A stretch of 64,000 nt of DNA from Amycolatopsis deserti (GTDB lineage: Bacteria; Actinomycetota; Actinomycetes; Mycobacteriales; Pseudonocardiaceae): positions 1,054,001-1,118,000 of the forward strand of contig NZ_BNAU01000001.1 of NCBI RefSeq assembly GCF_014653945.1, in the 5' to 3' direction. The notes below the pieces were generated by a model. The model had not been told where the DNA came from, ran no database searches, and worked only from the letters and a program-made list of their open reading frames with translations. Numbering within the stretch: position 1 is the stretch's first letter; every line of letters begins with the position of its first letter. Positions 27,631-33,699 of the stretch are shown piece after piece. The position numbers were made by a program, and so were the translations under genes.

Positions 27631-27654
27631 GAACTCGTGACGGGCCGGTGCGTG
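27631..27654 (+). promoter_or_regulatory. Putative ECF-sigma-dependent promoter of the Asp23 operon
   Basis: GAAC at 27631-27634 and CGTG at 27651-27654 are 16 bases apart, which resembles the GGAAC / CGT elements read by many ECF sigma factors. It lies about 58 bases before the sigma gene, suggesting autoregulation. Short motifs like this occur by chance in GC-rich DNA. Confidence 0.3.
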
Positions 27655-27711
27655 AGCTTTCGCCGTGCCCGGTGTCTGGCCTACTGAAGCGAGTGTGAAT
27701 CCGGGGAGGCT

Positions 27712-28293
27712 GTGCATGGGCGGGACGCGGTGACGGCCGGGGCCCACCTCGGCGAGGTCCTGGACGACGCGACGCTGGTCGCGCGGGCGCGTGACGGTGA
27801 CGTGCGCGCCTACGAGGAGCTGGTGCGCCGCTACCAGGGCCGCATGTACCGGCTCGCGCTGCGGATGCTGGGCAGCGCCGGCGACGCCGAGGACGTGGTG
27901 CAGGAGGTGTTCCTCACCGTGTGGCGGCGGCTGGAGCAGCTCGCCGACGACCGGGCCTTCGTCGGCTGGCTGTACCGGTCGGTCACCAACCGCTGCCTCA
28001 ACGTCATCCGCGCCCGCCGCCCGGTCACCGACGTCGACCCGGACGACACCGAGACCCGCCGCGGCGACGCCCGGCCCGAGCGCGCCGCCGAGGTGAGCGC
28101 CCAGATGGCCGCCCTGACCGCGGCACTGGCCGGGCTGACGCCGGAGCAGCGGGCCTGCTGGCTGCTGCGCGAGGTGCACGGCCGGTCCTACGAGGAGATC
28201 GCGGAGGCCGTGTCGACCTCGCCGGGCGCGGTCCGCGGGCGCATCGCGCGAGCCCGTGCGCAACTGGCGGAGGTGATGCAGCCATGGCGCTAG
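27712..28293 (+). CDS. ECF-type RNA polymerase sigma factor heading the Asp23 operon
   Basis: About 193 residues. Region 2: YEELVRRYQGRMYRLALRMLGSAGDAEDVVQEVFLTVWRRL, with RAFVGWLYRSVTNRCLN as region 2.4 into 3. Region 4: LTPEQRACWLLREVHGRSYEEIAEAVSTSPGAVRGRIARARAQL, the -35-binding helix-turn-helix. There is no C-terminal extension. GGGGAGG at 27703-27709 sits very close to the GTG at 27712; the in-frame GTG at 27730 is an alternative start. The last ten bases overlap the next gene, which carries an anti-sigma zinc motif, so sigma and regulator are made together. Confidence 0.88.
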   Translation: MHGRDAVTAGAHLGEVLDDATLVARARDGDVRAYEELVRRYQGRMYRLALRMLGSAGDAEDVVQEVFLTVWRRLEQLADDRAFVGWLYRSVTNRCLNVIRARRPVTDVDPDDTETRRGDARPERAAEVSAQMAALTAALAGLTPEQRACWLLREVHGRSYEEIAEAVSTSPGAVRGRIARARAQLAEVMQPWR

Positions 28294-28838
28294 ACCAGAC
28301 CACCCACGACCTGCCCTGCGGCCGGTCGCTGGAGGACGTGTGGGACCGCCTCGACGCGGTCACCGAGCACGACCTGACCTGCCCGCACTGCTCGACCGCC
28401 CGCGGCAGCCTGCTCGCCCTGCGGGACGCGACCCGCGAGCTGGCGGCGGAGCAGACCGAGCCGTCGCGGGACCTGACCGAGCGGATCATGTCCGCGGTCC
28501 GCGCCGACGTGCGGCGCTACCGCGGCATGGTGCGGCTGTCCGCGCCGGAGCCCGGCACGCTCGAGGTGAGCGAGCAGGCGGTCGCGGCCGTGCTGCGGTT
28601 CGCCGCCGACGAGATGGACGGCGTCCGCGCCCGCCGCTGCCGGGTCACCACCGCCGGGCTGGACGCCGACGGGCGGACGCTGATCGAGGCCGAGCTGACC
28701 ATCGCCACCGCCTACCGCGACGACCTCGCCGACGTGCTGGCGCGGCTGCGGGACCGGGTCGGCGCCGCGTGCTCGTCCGGGATCGGCGTCCGGCTGGTGC
28801 GGCTGGATCTGCGGGTCGACGACTTCTACGACCGGTGA
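28284..28838 (+). CDS. Zinc anti-sigma-like motif joined to an Asp23/Gls24-like region
   Basis: A 184-residue soluble protein. Residues 8-36 contain H8, C12 and then HDLTCPHC, an HX3CX2C pattern (H29, C33, C36) like the zinc-binding motif of ZAS anti-sigma factors. Residues from about 85 on (EVSEQAVAAVLRFAADEMDGVRARRCRVTT, then LIEAELTIATAYRDDLADVLARLRDRV and VRLDLRVDDFYDR) follow the Asp23/Gls24 pattern of a helix, paired strands, an amphipathic helix and a last strand. It starts inside the sigma gene end. My reading is that it is the cognate anti-sigma factor with an Asp23-like sensor or docking part. That coupling is inference and not, as far as I know, described. Confidence 0.65.
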   Translation: MALDQTTHDLPCGRSLEDVWDRLDAVTEHDLTCPHCSTARGSLLALRDATRELAAEQTEPSRDLTERIMSAVRADVRRYRGMVRLSAPEPGTLEVSEQAVAAVLRFAADEMDGVRARRCRVTTAGLDADGRTLIEAELTIATAYRDDLADVLARLRDRVGAACSSGIGVRLVRLDLRVDDFYDR

Positions 28839-28850
28839 GAGGGGGAACTG

Positions 28851-29204
28851 GTGCACGTCGAGTGGATCGTCGAGGACGCCGTGGTGGCGTCGGTGGCCGC
28901 GCACGCCGCCCGGTCGGTGCCGGGCGTGGCCCGGCTGGAGCCGGGCGTGGCGGGGCTGGTGCGCGGCTGGGGCCGGGCGCGGTGGCAGCAGGTCAAGGGC
29001 CTCACTCCGGCACCCGCGGACGGGGTGAGCGTCCGCCGCGCCGGGGACGACGTCGAGGTGTGGGTGGGCATCGCCACCCGCGCCGGGGCGCAGGTGGCCG
29101 CGGTCGCCAGGGCGGTGCAGCGCGAGGTGCGCGCCCGGCTGCACCGGGACACCGGGGTGCGGCCCGGTCAGGTGTCGGTGACCGTGCTGGACATCGAACG
29201 ATGA
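28851..29204 (+). CDS. Asp23/Gls24 family envelope stress response protein
   Basis: A 117-residue protein: EDAVVASVAAHAARSVPGVARLEPG, then VSVRRAGDDVEVWVGIATRAGAQVAAVARAVQREVRARLHRDTGVRPGQVSVTVLDIER. The order of a helix with A..VPGV, then an alternating strand, a long amphipathic helix and a closing VxVxVxDI strand is the Asp23/Gls24 fold pattern. The GTG start has GGGGGA upstream. The stop overlaps the next ATG (ATGA). Asp23 proteins in Firmicutes form a layer on the inner membrane face held by AmaP; the same role can be supposed here. Confidence 0.72.
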   Translation: MHVEWIVEDAVVASVAAHAARSVPGVARLEPGVAGLVRGWGRARWQQVKGLTPAPADGVSVRRAGDDVEVWVGIATRAGAQVAAVARAVQREVRARLHRDTGVRPGQVSVTVLDIER

Positions 29205-29497
29205 CCCCGCGCGCCGAGCACGTCGAGGCGATCCTGACCGCATTGTCCGAAGTGGACGGCCTGCGCCCGGCGGCACCCGCGGTGCGGCCGGTGGCGTCGT
29301 GGAACCCGGCCGCGCTGGCGGTCGACCTGACGCCGGAGGTCGTGCGCGTGCGCCTGGTCGCCACCGCGCTGCCGCTGCCGCCGCGGCTGCGGCTGGCCGG
29401 GGACGCGGTCGCGAAGGCACTGGTGGGAAGTGCTTACGCGGACGCGGAAATCCGGCTCGTGGTGACCGATGTGGACGGAACCGCGTTCGGCGCGTGA
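29201..29497 (+). CDS. Small protein of the Asp23 operon, function unknown
   Basis: A 98-residue protein that I do not recognise as a named family. Its second half (VVRVRLVATALPLPPRLRLAGDAVAKALVG, then AEIRLVVTDVDGTAFGA) has the strand, amphipathic helix, strand order seen in the neighbouring Asp23-like proteins, so it may be a shortened or divergent relative. It is translationally coupled to the gene before it by ATGA. A 59-base gap then separates it from the main Asp23 gene, the largest gap inside the operon. Confidence 0.6.
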   Translation: MTPRAEHVEAILTALSEVDGLRPAAPAVRPVASWNPAALAVDLTPEVVRVRLVATALPLPPRLRLAGDAVAKALVGSAYADAEIRLVVTDVDGTAFGA

Positions 29498-29556
29498 CGT
29501 TTCCGCGGCGGCGGTGTCGGAAGAAGTGGGAACACCAACCGGAAAGGGGAGAGAAG

Positions 29557-30009
29557 ATGAGCAGTGCGACCGAGGAGAAGGCCGCCGCGGTGAGCAAGCT
29601 GGCGGCGAGCTCACTGGTGACCAGCCAGGGCACCACCACGATCGCGAGCACGGTGGTGCAGAAGATCGCCGGGCTGGCGGCGCGGGAGATCCCGGGCGTG
29701 TACGACCTGGGCGGCGGCGCGGCGCGGGCGTTCAACGCGCTGCGCGAGCGCATCCCGGGCGCCAGCGGCAGCGTCGGCCAGGGCGTGTCGGTCGAGGTCG
29801 GGGAGAAGCAGGCCGCGGTGGACCTGCAGATCGTGGTCGAGTACGGGGTGTCCATCGCCGATCTGGCGCAGGCGGTGCGGGCCAACGCGATCGGCGCGAT
29901 CGAGCAGATGACCGGGCTGGAGGTCGTCGAGGTCAACATCACCGTCAACGACGTGCACCTGCCCGACGACGACGAGCCGCAGGGCGGCGCGCCCGCCCGG
30001 GTGCAGTGA
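29557..30009 (+). CDS. Asp23/Gls24 family envelope stress response protein (canonical copy)
   Basis: A 150-residue protein and the most typical Asp23/Gls24 member of the operon. It has TTIASTVVQKIAGLAAREIPGVYDLGGG, VSVEVGEKQAAVDLQIVVEYGVSIADLAQAVRANAIGAIEQMTGLEVVEVNITVNDVHLP, and a charged disordered tail. The EIPGV, VEYG and VNITVNDV segments are hallmarks of the family, known in Staphylococcus as an abundant protein attached to the membrane through AmaP and tied to cell-envelope stress. It has a strong ribosome site (GGGGAGAG) before the ATG, the best of the operon, so this copy may be the most abundant. Confidence 0.88.
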   Translation: MSSATEEKAAAVSKLAASSLVTSQGTTTIASTVVQKIAGLAAREIPGVYDLGGGAARAFNALRERIPGASGSVGQGVSVEVGEKQAAVDLQIVVEYGVSIADLAQAVRANAIGAIEQMTGLEVVEVNITVNDVHLPDDDEPQGGAPARVQ

Positions 30010-30010
30010 C

Positions 30011-30187
30011 GTGAGCGCCACGATCGCCGGTCTGCTGACCGGGCTCGTCCTCGGCCTGGCCGCCGCGTTCGGCGGGTTCGGCGCGTTCCTGATCGTCGCC
30101 GTGCTGGGCGGGCTGGGCCTGCTGGTGGGCCGGGTGCTGGACGGCAAGCTCGACTTGTCCCGGTTCACCGACCGGGAGCGGAGGTGA
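30011..30187 (+). CDS. DUF2273-like small membrane protein
   Basis: A 58-residue peptide starting at a GTG one base after the stop of the Asp23 gene. It is nearly all membrane: two short hydrophobic stretches (IAGLLTGLVLGLAAAFGGFGAFLIVAVLGGLGLLVGRVL) and a charged end LDLSRFTDRERR. Small two-helix DUF2273 proteins are regular members of Asp23/AmaP operons in Gram-positive bacteria, which supports both the reading frame and its membership. Likely a membrane partner in the Asp23 assembly. Confidence 0.72.
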   Translation: MSATIAGLLTGLVLGLAAAFGGFGAFLIVAVLGGLGLLVGRVLDGKLDLSRFTDRERR

Positions 30188-30191
30188 GCCG

Positions 30192-30563
30192 GTGACCGTC
30201 GAAGCGCCGGAGCGGCGCGGCACCACGGTCGTGGCCGACCGGGCGGTGCAGCGCATCGCCGAACAGGTGATCACCGGGCTGGACGGCGTGGGCGGGGCCG
30301 CGCGCCGCGTGCTCGGGGTCGCCGTGAGCAGTGGTGATCCGGAGCAGCCGGCCAACGTCACCGCGCGGGTGCGGGACGGCCGGGTCAGCCTGGCCGTGGA
30401 ACTGTCGGTCGGCTACCCGGCCCCGGTCGCGCGCACCACGCGCGCGGCGCGGGAACGGCTGATCCGGCGGGTCGGCGAACTGACCGGGCTGGTCGTGGAA
30501 CGGGTGGACATCACGGTGACCGCCCTGCACAGCGACCGGTCGCGGGAGAGGAACGTGACATGA
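30192..30563 (+). CDS. Asp23/Gls24 family protein
   Basis: A 123-residue Asp23-like protein: VVADRAVQRIAEQVITGLDGVGGAARRVLG, a variable loop, VTARVRDGRVSLAVELSVGYPAPVARTTRAARERLIRRVGELTGLVVERVDITVTAL. The fold pattern matches the copies at 28851 and 29557, with the first helix carrying RIAEQV and the last strand VDITV. The GTG start lies four bases after the DUF2273-like stop, and the stop overlaps the next ATG. The operon thus encodes at least four Asp23-like units including the fusion at 28284. Confidence 0.78.
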   Translation: MTVEAPERRGTTVVADRAVQRIAEQVITGLDGVGGAARRVLGVAVSSGDPEQPANVTARVRDGRVSLAVELSVGYPAPVARTTRAARERLIRRVGELTGLVVERVDITVTALHSDRSRERNVT

Positions 30564-31090
30564 CCCGCCGGTCCCGGCGCAGCCTCGCGGCCACCCTGGT
30601 GGCCCTGATCGGGGTGATCGGGTGCGTGCTGGTGGCGACCAGCGCGGTGCAGCTCCTGCTGGGCGAGCGGCCGGTGCTGGACTACGACGCCGTCGCCGCC
30701 TGGCTGCACGCCACTCGCTGGGAAGCGCTTCCCGTCGCGATCGGCGGGGGATTGCTGGCCGCGGTGGGCCTGGTGGTGCTGCTGGCGGCGGTGCTGCCCG
30801 GCCGCGCGCTCGTACTGCCCTTGTCGGGGGGAAGCAGCAGGGTCGTCAAGGCCGGCGCGAGCCGCCGCAGCATCACCGGGAGCCTGCGCTCGGCGGCCGA
30901 ATCGGCCGACGGGGTGGAGTCGGCGAAGGTGCGGCTGCGGCGGGGCAGCGTGACCGCGAAGGTGCGCGGCGGCCGGCTGGCCGCCGACGACGTGGCCACG
31001 CAGGTGCGGCAGGCGATGGAGGACCAGCTGGACCGCATCGCCCCGGCCCGGCGGCCGCGGGTGAAGGTGCGCGTGAGGAGCACGGCATGA
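30560..31090 (+). CDS. DUF6286-like two-helix membrane protein of the Asp23 operon
   Basis: A 176-residue protein. A basic N terminus (RRSRRSL) precedes membrane helix 1 (about residues 9-34) and helix 2 (about 57-82); a soluble domain follows with VKAGASRRSITGSLRSAAESADGVESAKVRLRRGSVTAKVRGGR, and ends VKVRVRSTA. The soluble part again has the strand-helix-strand look of an Asp23- or AmaP-like C-terminal domain on the cytoplasmic face. I assign DUF6286 from the gene order and overall pattern, so treat that name as provisional. ATGA overlaps at both ends. Confidence 0.65.
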   Translation: MTRRSRRSLAATLVALIGVIGCVLVATSAVQLLLGERPVLDYDAVAAWLHATRWEALPVAIGGGLLAAVGLVVLLAAVLPGRALVLPLSGGSSRVVKAGASRRSITGSLRSAAESADGVESAKVRLRRGSVTAKVRGGRLAADDVATQVRQAMEDQLDRIAPARRPRVKVRVRSTA

Positions 31091-31659
31091 CCCGCCTGAA
31101 CCGTCCCGCCCGGCTCAACCGGACCCTGCTCGCGCTGATCGGGCTCGTCCTGCTGGCCGGGGGCGGGTTCGCCCTGGCCACCTCGGTCGGCTGGCTGCGC
31201 GTGCTCGACCGCTCGCGGCCGCTCGTCCCCGGCGACGACCGGCCGCCGGCGTGGGTGCTGTACGTGACGGTGGTCGTCGCGGTGGTGCTGGGGCTGCTGT
31301 TCCTGCGGTGGCTGGCCGCGCAGGCGATGCGCCGCCCGAAGACGCAGACCTGGCGCCTGGAGGACGATCCGGCCCGCGGGGTCACGAAGCTGGCTGCGGA
31401 CGCGGCGGTCGCGCCGTTCGAGTCGGAGATCGCGGCGTACCCGCAGGTGCGCTCGGCGGACGCGACGCTGTCCGGCACGCAGGACCGGCCCACGCTGCTG
31501 GTGACGGTGACCGCCGAGCCGGGCACCGACCTGACGGCACTGCGGGAGCACATCGTGACCGACGGCGTGGCGCGGTTGACGCAGGCGCTGGACCTGACGG
31601 AGCTGCCGTCGGTGATCGAGTTCCGCATCGCCGCGGAAGCGGCCGCGCGGGTGATCTAG
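31087..31659 (+). CDS. AmaP-like alkaline shock membrane anchor protein
   Basis: A 190-residue protein with membrane helices at about residues 13-37 and 57-78, and a soluble C-terminal domain: GVTKLAADAAVAPFESEIAAYPQVRSADATLSGTQDRPTLLVTVTAEPGTDLTALREHIVTDGVARLTQALDL. This two-helix plus Asp23-like domain form is that of AmaP, which in Staphylococcus aureus tethers Asp23 to the membrane. It is the last gene of the operon, and its stop overlaps the convergent HxlR gene by four bases, so no terminator fits between them. Confidence 0.72.
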   Translation: MTRLNRPARLNRTLLALIGLVLLAGGGFALATSVGWLRVLDRSRPLVPGDDRPPAWVLYVTVVVAVVLGLLFLRWLAAQAMRRPKTQTWRLEDDPARGVTKLAADAAVAPFESEIAAYPQVRSADATLSGTQDRPTLLVTVTAEPGTDLTALREHIVTDGVARLTQALDLTELPSVIEFRIAAEAAARVI

Positions 31660-32036
31660 ACCGGCACCGCGGTTCGCTGGGCGTCGTAGGCCTGGCGGGC
31701 CGCGGCGATCTCGCCGCGGTACTTCTCCGCCCAGGAGGTCAGCCCGACCAGCGTCTGGTGCAGCTCGCGGGCCATGTCGGTGAGCGAGTACTCCACCCGC
31801 GGCGGCACGGTCGGGTACACGGTGCGCACCAGCAGCCCGTCGCGCTCCAGCTTGCGCAGCGTCAGCGTCAGCATGCGGCGGCTGATGCCCTCCACCTCCC
31901 GCTCCAGCTGGGTGAAGCGGACCGGCCCGCGCGCGGCGGTGACCAGGATGCCGATCGCCCACTTGCCGGCGACGTGGTCGAGGACCTCGACGATCGGGCA
32001 CGCCTCGGTGACGGGGGAAGCGGTGTCAGCAGCCAT
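31656..32036 (-). CDS. HxlR family winged-helix regulator
   Basis: A 126-residue regulator: CPIVEVLDHVAGKWAIGILVTAARGPVRFTQLEREVEGISRRMLTLTLRKLERDGLLVRTVYPTVPPRVEYSLTDMARELH, the standard HxlR winged helix. C13 in the EACPI segment matches the N-terminal cysteine through which several HxlR proteins (YodB, HypR, QorR) sense quinones or disulfide stress; no other cysteine is seen. It diverges from a DHA2 exporter gene. CAGTTAC occurs at 32063 and 32201 in the gap between them and might be part of the operator. Confidence 0.88.
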   Translation of the reverse strand: MAADTASPVTEACPIVEVLDHVAGKWAIGILVTAARGPVRFTQLEREVEGISRRMLTLTLRKLERDGLLVRTVYPTVPPRVEYSLTDMARELHQTLVGLTSWAEKYRGEIAAARQAYDAQRTAVPV

Positions 32037-32235
32037 ACCTCGATGGTTCCATGTCCGCCCCTCAGTTACCAGCCGTCTCCCATGGCGATCGTGGCGTGCA
32101 TCACAGCCTCACCGGTGGGACCAGGAGTGGTACATCGGTGTTCCTCTGGCACAGAGAACTGCCTTCTTCCGGACACGATCACGGGCTCACATGATGGCCC
32201 CAGTTACAAATCGTGCCCCTTTGGAGGTCAAGGCC

Positions 32236-33699
32236 ATGTCCCTCGATCAGCCGGCCGGACGATCGCGGTGGCTCGCGCTCGCCGTGCTGTCCGCGCAGAC
32301 GCTGATGATCGTGCTCGACCAGACGATCGTGAACGTCGCCCTGCCGGCCATCCGCGACGACCTCGGCTTCACGCCGTCGAACCTGTCCTGGGTCGTCAAC
32401 GCCTACCTGATCCCCTTCGGCGGGCTGCTGCTGCTCGCCGGCCGCCTCGGGGACCTGGCCGGCCGCCGCCGCGTCTTCCTCGCCGGGATGGCCGTGTTCA
32501 CGCTGGCCTCGCTGCTCGCCGGGCTCGCCTGGAACCCGGAAACCCTGATGGCCGCGCGGTTCCTGCAGGGCGCGGGCGGCGCCGCCTCGACCGCGGTCGC
32601 GCTGGGCATGGTCGTCCGGCTGTTCCCGGAGCCGGCTGAACGCGCCAAGGCGCTGGGCGCGTTCAGCTTCGTGCAGGCCGCGGGCGGCTCGATCGGCAGC
32701 ATCGCCGGCGGTGTGCTCACCCAGGCGCTGAGCTGGCACTGGATCTTCCTGATCAACCTGCCGATCGGCCTGGCCGCCGGCGCGGTCGCGGTGCGGGTGC
32801 TGGAGAACGACCGCGGCCTCGGGCTGCGTGCCGGCGCGGACTGGCTGGGCGCCGCGCTGGTGACCGCCGCGCTGATGCTCGGCGTCTACACGATCGTCGA
32901 GGTGGAGTCCCACGGCTGGGCCTCGGCGCACACGCTCGGCTTCGGCGCCCTGTCGCTGGCGCTGCTGGCCGCGTTCGGCATCCGCCAGGCCCGCACCCGC
33001 GACCCGCTGCTGCCGCCGCGGATCTTCGCCTCGCGCGGCCTGTCCGGGGCGAACCTGACGATGGCGCTGCTGGTGTCGGCGATGTTCGGGTTCCAGTTCC
33101 TGGTCGTGCTGTACCTGCGGCAGGTGCTGGGCCTGAGCGCCCAGGCCACCGGGCTGGCGATGGTGCCGATCGCCGGGACGATCGCGCTGGTGTCGCTGGC
33201 GGTCTCGCCGCGGCTGTCCACCCGCTTCGGCGACTACCGGGTGCTGCTGGCGGGGCTGGTGCTGATCGGCGGCGGGCTCGCCTGGCTGGCCCGGGTGCCC
33301 GCCGACGGCGGCTACGCGACCGACGTGCTCGGTCCGACGCTGGCGATGGGCGCCGGGTTCGGCCTGGCCATGCCCGCGCTGATGGGACTGGGCATGCGGG
33401 ACGCCGCCGCCGACGACACCGGTCTGGCCTCCGGGCTGTTCAACACGACGCAGCAGGTCGCGGGCGCGCTGGGGCTGTCGGTGCTGGCGGTGCTCGCCGC
33501 GACGCGCACCGAGTCGCTGACCGGGGTGCGGCCGGAGGAGGCGCTCACCTCCGGCTACCACCTCGCCTTCTGGGTCGGGACCGGGCTCGTCGCGGCCGCC
33601 TTCGTCGTGGCCGCGGTGATGCTGCGCCCCGGCGTGGCGGCGCGACGAACGGGGGAACCCGGCGCTACCGTCGCGGATCGTGCGCTCCCACAGCTATGA
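32236..33699 (+). CDS. MFS transporter, DHA2 (EmrB/QacA, 14 TM) type
   Basis: A 487-residue drug:proton antiporter. It has LMIVLDQTIVNVALPAIRDDLGF (motif D1 of the 14-helix family), LLLLAGRLGDLAGRRRVFLAG (motif A), RFLQGAGGAASTAVALGMVVRLFP (motif B region) and GSIAGGVLTQALSWHWIFLINLPIG (motif C). The ATG at 32236 has GGAGG nine bases upstream. It diverges from the HxlR regulator, the common layout for a redox- or quinone-induced exporter. Its last 20 bases overlap the start of the DUF3097 gene. Confidence 0.9.
   Translation: MSLDQPAGRSRWLALAVLSAQTLMIVLDQTIVNVALPAIRDDLGFTPSNLSWVVNAYLIPFGGLLLLAGRLGDLAGRRRVFLAGMAVFTLASLLAGLAWNPETLMAARFLQGAGGAASTAVALGMVVRLFPEPAERAKALGAFSFVQAAGGSIGSIAGGVLTQALSWHWIFLINLPIGLAAGAVAVRVLENDRGLGLRAGADWLGAALVTAALMLGVYTIVEVESHGWASAHTLGFGALSLALLAAFGIRQARTRDPLLPPRIFASRGLSGANLTMALLVSAMFGFQFLVVLYLRQVLGLSAQATGLAMVPIAGTIALVSLAVSPRLSTRFGDYRVLLAGLVLIGGGLAWLARVPADGGYATDVLGPTLAMGAGFGLAMPALMGLGMRDAAADDTGLASGLFNTTQQVAGALGLSVLAVLAATRTESLTGVRPEEALTSGYHLAFWVGTGLVAAAFVVAAVMLRPGVAARRTGEPGATVADRALPQL

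Follow-up and report, generated by a model that had tools for sequence, protein, structure and literature searches.

An operon of nine plus-strand open reading frames (ORFs) on contig C1 of the 7.7 Mb genome of the soil actinomycete Amycolatopsis deserti, at 27730-31659 of an analysed stretch of 64,000 nucleotides (hereafter the window, in whose coordinates it is described), runs from an extracytoplasmic function (ECF) sigma factor gene to an AmaP-like gene. Its second product is a predicted fusion of a zinc anti-sigma-type domain with an Asp23-like domain, and profile comparison backs both halves. We consider it reasonably probable that sigma factor and fusion form a dedicated ECF sigma/soluble class I zinc anti-sigma pair with one main target, its own operon together with the Asp23-layer genes, in a homeostatic loop. 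Sequence analysis supports the domain make-up of the fusion, the constant pairing of the two genes, a shared promoter motif, and the joint presence of sigma factor, N-terminal domain and motif. The brake appears to share a kind of domain with the membrane-lining proteins that are apparently switched on, a hint that this lining may regulate how much of it is made.

Domain make-up of the fusion protein

The fusion is 96% identical to its Amycolatopsis thermalba counterpart. A preliminary description of this DNA had pointed to an HX3CX2C motif, which is real (H29, C33 and C36) and to which C12 is added as a probable fourth ligand. All four residues are kept in 62/65 fusion homologues, so the motif is not due to chance; these homologues come from the window and 64 fetched loci, picked by similarity to the fusion rather than at random, and the three exceptions (L124-L126) are pairs without a complete zinc site. 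The N-half profile, compared by hhalign with eight zf-HC2 proteins encoded in this genome, scored 89.7% (P = 1.8e-6), aligned on HX3CX2C, against <2% for each of eight control profiles. An AlphaFold2 model built from five sequences (mean predicted local distance difference test (pLDDT) score 74.6, predicted template modelling score 0.50) places helices at residues 16-21, 28-32 and 34-56, followed by a weak linker and a further helix at 64-74 with pLDDT 52-57. This predicted layout with a linked last helix resembles class I anti-sigma domains as PMC7406223 describes them, in which the first three helices are bundled and the flexibly tethered helix 4 binds sigma region 2. Hydropathy indicates no transmembrane segment in the window fusion; 4/65 trimmed homologues, with uncertain start sites, exceed the hydropathy cut-off.

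The C half matched the three Asp23 families of the operon at 96.7-97.5% in profile-profile hhalign comparison, supporting the Asp23-like character proposed for it earlier, and residues 101-180 were modelled with block pLDDT values of 81-92. Single-sequence scores of the window fusion lie under the Pfam cut-offs (Asp23, PF03780, 17.6 vs 28 bits; DUF6286, 19 vs 35 bits), and a Pfam Asp23 match at E 0.01 or better is found in 25/41 members of the fusion family.

Sigma-fusion pairing across loci

In 65/65 loci the gene immediately upstream of the fusion, on the same strand, is the ECF sigma gene, and the two genes overlap by 10 nucleotides in 44/65 and by 4 nucleotides in 15/65. An Asp23-type gene stands directly 3' of the fusion in 55/65, and the canonical Asp23 gene is on the same strand as the pair in 29 loci, divergent in 16 and convergent in 1. 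Of three Streptomyces plasmid matches, the two that were read (NZ_CP109253.1, L272; NZ_CP108443.1, L273) both carry the pair divergent from an Asp23 cassette; public annotation calls their fusion 'Asp23/Gls24 family' or 'hypothetical', and the motif described below precedes the cassette in one but not the other, and the sigma gene in neither. Because pair and divergent cassette sit on linear plasmids here, the module may move between strains.

At one distant locus (L248, 2603-4291, minus strand), a single 563-residue frame encodes sigma regions 2 and 4, then the last helix of the fusion and the Asp23-like part, with six residues between the sigma part and that helix. This frame, found in one genome, may be a natural sigma/anti-sigma-type fusion or an assembly error. 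A second copy in genome G146 (L087) has a fusion 49% identical and a sigma match over the first two thirds of the profile, in one frame with the fusion; decay and sequencing error are both possible.

A shared promoter motif

Side-by-side reading of upstream sequences yielded a motif, CGTGA-N12..18-GTGTC, present twice in the operon: P1 lies upstream of the sigma gene, and P2 occupies the end of the small-protein gene and the 59-base gap before the canonical Asp23 gene. Counted in the same loci in which it was discovered, and over related rows, the motif occurs in 33/65 sigma upstream regions (mean 0.62 in dinucleotide shuffles) and in 27/50 Asp23 upstream regions (0.48 in shuffles). The total length of these matches is always 26 or 27, and conservation extends to columns outside the seed (C 36, G 36, T 31 and T 34 of 43 sites). 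Written as GTGAC-N16-TGTC, the motif has the spacing usual for ECF promoters. A matrix built from the sigma promoters alone, with its threshold at the 99% shuffle level, passes in 33/50 linked Asp23 regions.

Autoregulation, as first proposed, is thus backed by a conserved motif before the sigma gene, but the promoter named for it, GAAC-16-CGTG, does not hold. Its letters are present at 27631-27654 and are not conserved: among the 65 sigma genes they stand at that position only in the window and its close relatives L006 and L067-L069, A. thermalba having lost GAAC. The CGTG taken as its '-10' is the start of the conserved '-35' of CGTGA-N16-GTGTC, and the second copy, before the Asp23 cassette, had been missed.

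The matrix also passes in 9/10 unlinked Asp23 cassettes of genus g16 (two in each of five genomes), which are remote from the sigma gene, at distances of about half a megabase or more, or on separate contigs. Across 40 chosen genomes the strict pattern has 58 matches, of which 26 (in 21 genomes) fall no more than 4 kb from the fusion, a zone making up about 0.1% of the sequence; with one mismatch allowed in 12 genomes, 18/66 matches are at fusion loci or unlinked cassettes, at least one per genome. Seed matches in the genome of the window (n = 39) were rescored with a matrix excluding this locus and A. thermalba. P2 ranks first (30.6) and P1 third (27.0); the match between them, C4:121272 (28.9, spacing 27), is inside a coding frame, and C7:239006 scores 7.8. 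If only length 26 is considered (eight matches), P2 and P1 take the top two places and the next scores 16.3.

A wide regulon was considered and set aside: the two best right-length matches in the genome both belong to the operon. The label 'envelope-stress' system given to this DNA earlier is therefore wider than the evidence. A weak match at C3:425725 (13.2), 24 bases before an open frame, could mark a further target.

Joint presence and absence of sigma factor, N-terminal domain and motif

Profile searching recovered many relatives with the Asp23-like half only. At five such loci (L230, L231, L232, L236 and L237) the lone protein corresponds to the fusion only from about residue 65-72 onwards, so that part of helix 4 may remain and the preceding part is absent; in 5/5 the fetched stretch lacks a sigma gene, and the Asp23 gene is not preceded by the motif. 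The lone gene there is divergent from, or beside, an Asp23 cassette. Among 14 further loci that keep the sigma gene, three retain HX3CX2C and four have an N-terminal part lacking it. The sigma factor thus accompanies the N-terminal domain and the motif among the few, related lineages compared here, some of which retain only a shortened, zinc-free part. Three findings support the earlier assignment of the fusion as the anti-sigma factor: its zinc domain, the sigma gene that always accompanies it, and the loci in which sigma gene and N-terminal domain are missing together.

Retention of HX3CX2C in orthologues, also expected earlier, stands for 62/65 homologues and fails elsewhere: L124-L126 and 11/14 further sigma-bearing loci keep the pair without it, so the zinc site is not required everywhere. 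It appears dispensable in some lineages and may have a structural role.

Proposed circuit and alternatives

In the circuit that we propose, the N-terminal zinc domain (helix bundle, linker and last helix) would clamp the sigma factor, and the C-terminal Asp23-like half would dock on, or co-assemble with, the Asp23/AmaP layer under the membrane. On release, the sigma factor would use CGTGACGTT-N12-GTGTC promoters to transcribe both its own gene and the Asp23-DUF2273-Asp23-DUF6286-AmaP cassette. If the Asp23-like half docks on the layer, sigma activity would therefore follow the amount or integrity of the layer, closing the homeostatic loop. Recognition of the motif by this sigma factor, binding of the sigma factor by the fusion, docking on the layer, the direction of the feedback and the outside signal are inferred parts of the scheme. 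Reading the layer's state is the probable role of the Asp23-like half of the brake. The fuller statement, that an anti-sigma factor carrying an Asp23-like domain assembles jointly with the Asp23 filaments of the layer, and that the layer's state sets the activity of a sigma factor with layer genes as its main targets, is one we hold tentatively, at somewhat under even chances.

Several results weigh against this circuit. On the promoter side, and beyond the overlap of discovery and counting loci given above, 17/50 linked Asp23 regions fall under the matrix threshold, as do 10/10 unlinked cassettes from another four genera. In three of those genera the sigma factors are more distant; in the fourth (G018) this is not so, and there the motif is present at the sigma gene and absent at the cassette. 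Away from fusion loci the strict pattern has 32 matches vs 9 for the reversed pattern (40 genomes), and off-locus matches to the one-mismatch pattern number 48 vs 11 (12 genomes); because these exceed the reversed-pattern control, there may be additional targets. At the 14 further sigma-bearing loci the matrix passes in 7/14 Asp23 regions and 0/14 sigma regions, and in 7/14 the fusion match begins only at about residue 42-46, so a sigma gene can persist without the zinc bundle. The fetched stretch contains no canonical Asp23 gene in 19/65 loci.

The protein evidence has its own contrary points. None of 41 fusion family members (0/41) reaches Pfam zf-HC2 at E 0.01. Two of the five best PDB matches of the 41-row whole-protein profile do favour the zinc anti-sigma reading, namely the top match 3hug_B (E 0.0068), which we take to be the anti-sigma factor RslA, and RsiW (5wuq_C, E 0.068), but this line is weak when taken alone because a zinc finger (2m0d_A, E 0.02) and designed hydrolases (E 0.037 and 0.048) rank between them. 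At L103 (4019-4798) the Asp23-like half is gone, and sigma gene, zinc domain and cassette remain. The zinc domain of L103 continues into a tail resembling the small protein of the operon, and this locus offers a natural test case for the role of the Asp23-like half.

The zinc site itself invites another explanation, in which the fusion would be a redox or zinc sensor of the RsrA/ChrR type that frees the sigma factor on oxidation of the cysteine-zinc site or loss of zinc, its Asp23-like half serving for dimerisation or localisation. The retention of the four-ligand C-H-C-C site in 62/65 homologues fits this, as does the statement in PMC8999054 and PMC7406223 that soluble zinc anti-sigma factors are often redox sensors. 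We judge it unlikely, given that pairs persist without the site in L124-L126 and in 11/14 further sigma-bearing loci, and that the best two right-length motif matches, with seed changes searched to one mismatch, are at the operon and not at redox genes. The layer might instead be output only, the sigma factor answering an outside envelope signal in a different way (through a kinase, sigma gene transcription or proteolysis of the fusion), and the Asp23-like half, derived from fusion with a neighbouring gene, merely holding the anti-sigma factor close to the membrane. Proteolytic control is frequent among ECF anti-sigma factors, the Asp23 cassette is an apparent target, and the 19/65 pairs whose fetched stretch is without a canonical Asp23 gene would be in keeping with such a role. 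This reading seems rather improbable: the Asp23-like half is kept in nearly all 65 aligned homologues, with L103 the clear exception, and the 24/296 class genomes whose fusion match begins no later than residue 13 carry Asp23 genes without exception, a count to which the C half of the fusion itself could add matches. A positive-feedback partner switch, in which free Asp23 binds the Asp23-like half and frees the sigma factor so that the first Asp23 amplifies the layer, would make use of the same domain family on both sides (by hhalign) and of the Asp23-type gene directly after the fusion in 55/65 loci; we regard this switch as very improbable.

Operon layout and neighbouring genes

All nine ORFs lie on the plus strand in the order first described, and the domain labels fit (Table 1). 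The genes overlap or are at most 12 bases apart, except for the 59 bases 5' of the canonical Asp23 gene. The AmaP-like protein scores below the NCBIfam cut-off of the AmaP equivalog NF033218 (49.7 vs 55 bits); since this score and that for DUF2273 fall just under their cut-offs, the labels 'AmaP-like' and 'DUF2273-like' are apt. Homologues of the small protein, possibly a shortened Asp23-like domain, occur in 29/65 loci; its hhalign value against the C half of the fusion is 37.6%.

Table 1 Genes and promoter motifs of the operon, in window coordinates
Feature	Position	Strand	Basis or remark
Promoter motif P1, CGTGA-N16-GTGTC	27651..27676	+	Upstream of sigma gene
ECF sigma factor gene	27730..28293	+	GTG start, alternative GTG 27712; Pfam Sigma70_r2 9.1e-19, Sigma70_r4_2 1.7e-14
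Fusion: zinc anti-sigma-type domain (residues 1-~78) and Asp23-like domain (~80-184)	28284..28838	+	hhalign, AlphaFold2, hydropathy; candidate anti-sigma factor
Asp23-family gene	28851..29204	+	Pfam Asp23 3.1e-12
Small protein	29201..29497	+	Without Pfam or NCBIfam match
Promoter motif P2, CGTGACGTT-N12-GTGTC	29493..29518	+	Before canonical Asp23 gene
Canonical Asp23 gene	29557..30009	+	Pfam Asp23 3.9e-30
DUF2273-like small membrane protein, two hydrophobic segments	30011..30187	+	Pfam 3.2e-4, 21.1 vs cut-off 25.4 bits; hydropathy
Asp23-family gene	30192..30563	+	Pfam Asp23 1.8e-8
DUF6286 membrane protein, two hydrophobic segments	30560..31090	+	Pfam 5.1e-27; hydropathy
AmaP-like membrane anchor, two hydrophobic segments	31087..31659	+	NCBIfam AmaP 3.4e-13; hydropathy

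Upstream neighbours of the operon are a DUF3090 gene and a 300-residue open frame. An HxlR-type regulator on the opposite strand (31656-32036) adjoins the downstream end, and beyond it the ORF list gives a long transporter-like frame (31774-33699); both are outside the operon.

Meaning and relation to known systems

A sigma factor seemingly devoted to Asp23 genes would provide a genetic handle, since the entire actinobacterial layer should be switchable by deletion or induction of this factor. If the Asp23-like half does read the layer, a structural, membrane-associated polymer would control its own supply through a sigma factor, and ECF groups with only a predicted anti-sigma factor so far would gain a promoter, targets and a mechanism.

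The second half of anti-sigma factors of the RslA, RsiW and RsrA type is a membrane segment or nothing. The fusion shares with class I zinc anti-sigma factors (RslA, RsiW, RsrA and ChrR) the HX3CX2C motif with an upstream ligand (62/65) and differs in that its second half is Asp23-like, rather than a membrane segment, nothing, or a cupin, the last being the second half of ChrR (PMC8999054). Closer in gene arrangement are ECF286 and ECF292 (Casas-Pastor et al. 2021, cited in PMC8999054), which adjoin soluble Asp23-family proteins that are predicted anti-sigma factors, with no experimental data according to that account; its actinobacterial examples are Streptomyces rimosus and Mycolicibacterium cosmeticum. 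The idea of a soluble Asp23-family anti-sigma factor is not new, since PMC8999054 already predicts it for these two groups. Their pattern of an ECF sigma gene beside a soluble Asp23-family protein recurs here in 65/65 loci and in the two Streptomyces plasmid loci, as a likeness in gene arrangement. Where PMC8999054 treats these groups it names no zinc domain, promoter or targets, whereas the fusion locus has predicted ones. Our literature search, whose scope did not take in the original ECF classification paper, found no report of the zinc-domain fusion, the promoter motif or the target set.

In Staphylococcus aureus, the asp23 gene is under SigB. Asp23 of this species is held at the membrane by AmaP, a product of the same operon, and assembles into filaments, and its molecular function is described as still unclear (PMC6954212); in Streptomyces, an Asp23-family gene was lowered after ethanol shock (PMC9769785). 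Compared with the S. aureus Asp23/AmaP layer, the Amycolatopsis cassette adds several Asp23 variants, DUF2273 and DUF6286 proteins and a putative ECF sigma/anti-sigma pair of its own.

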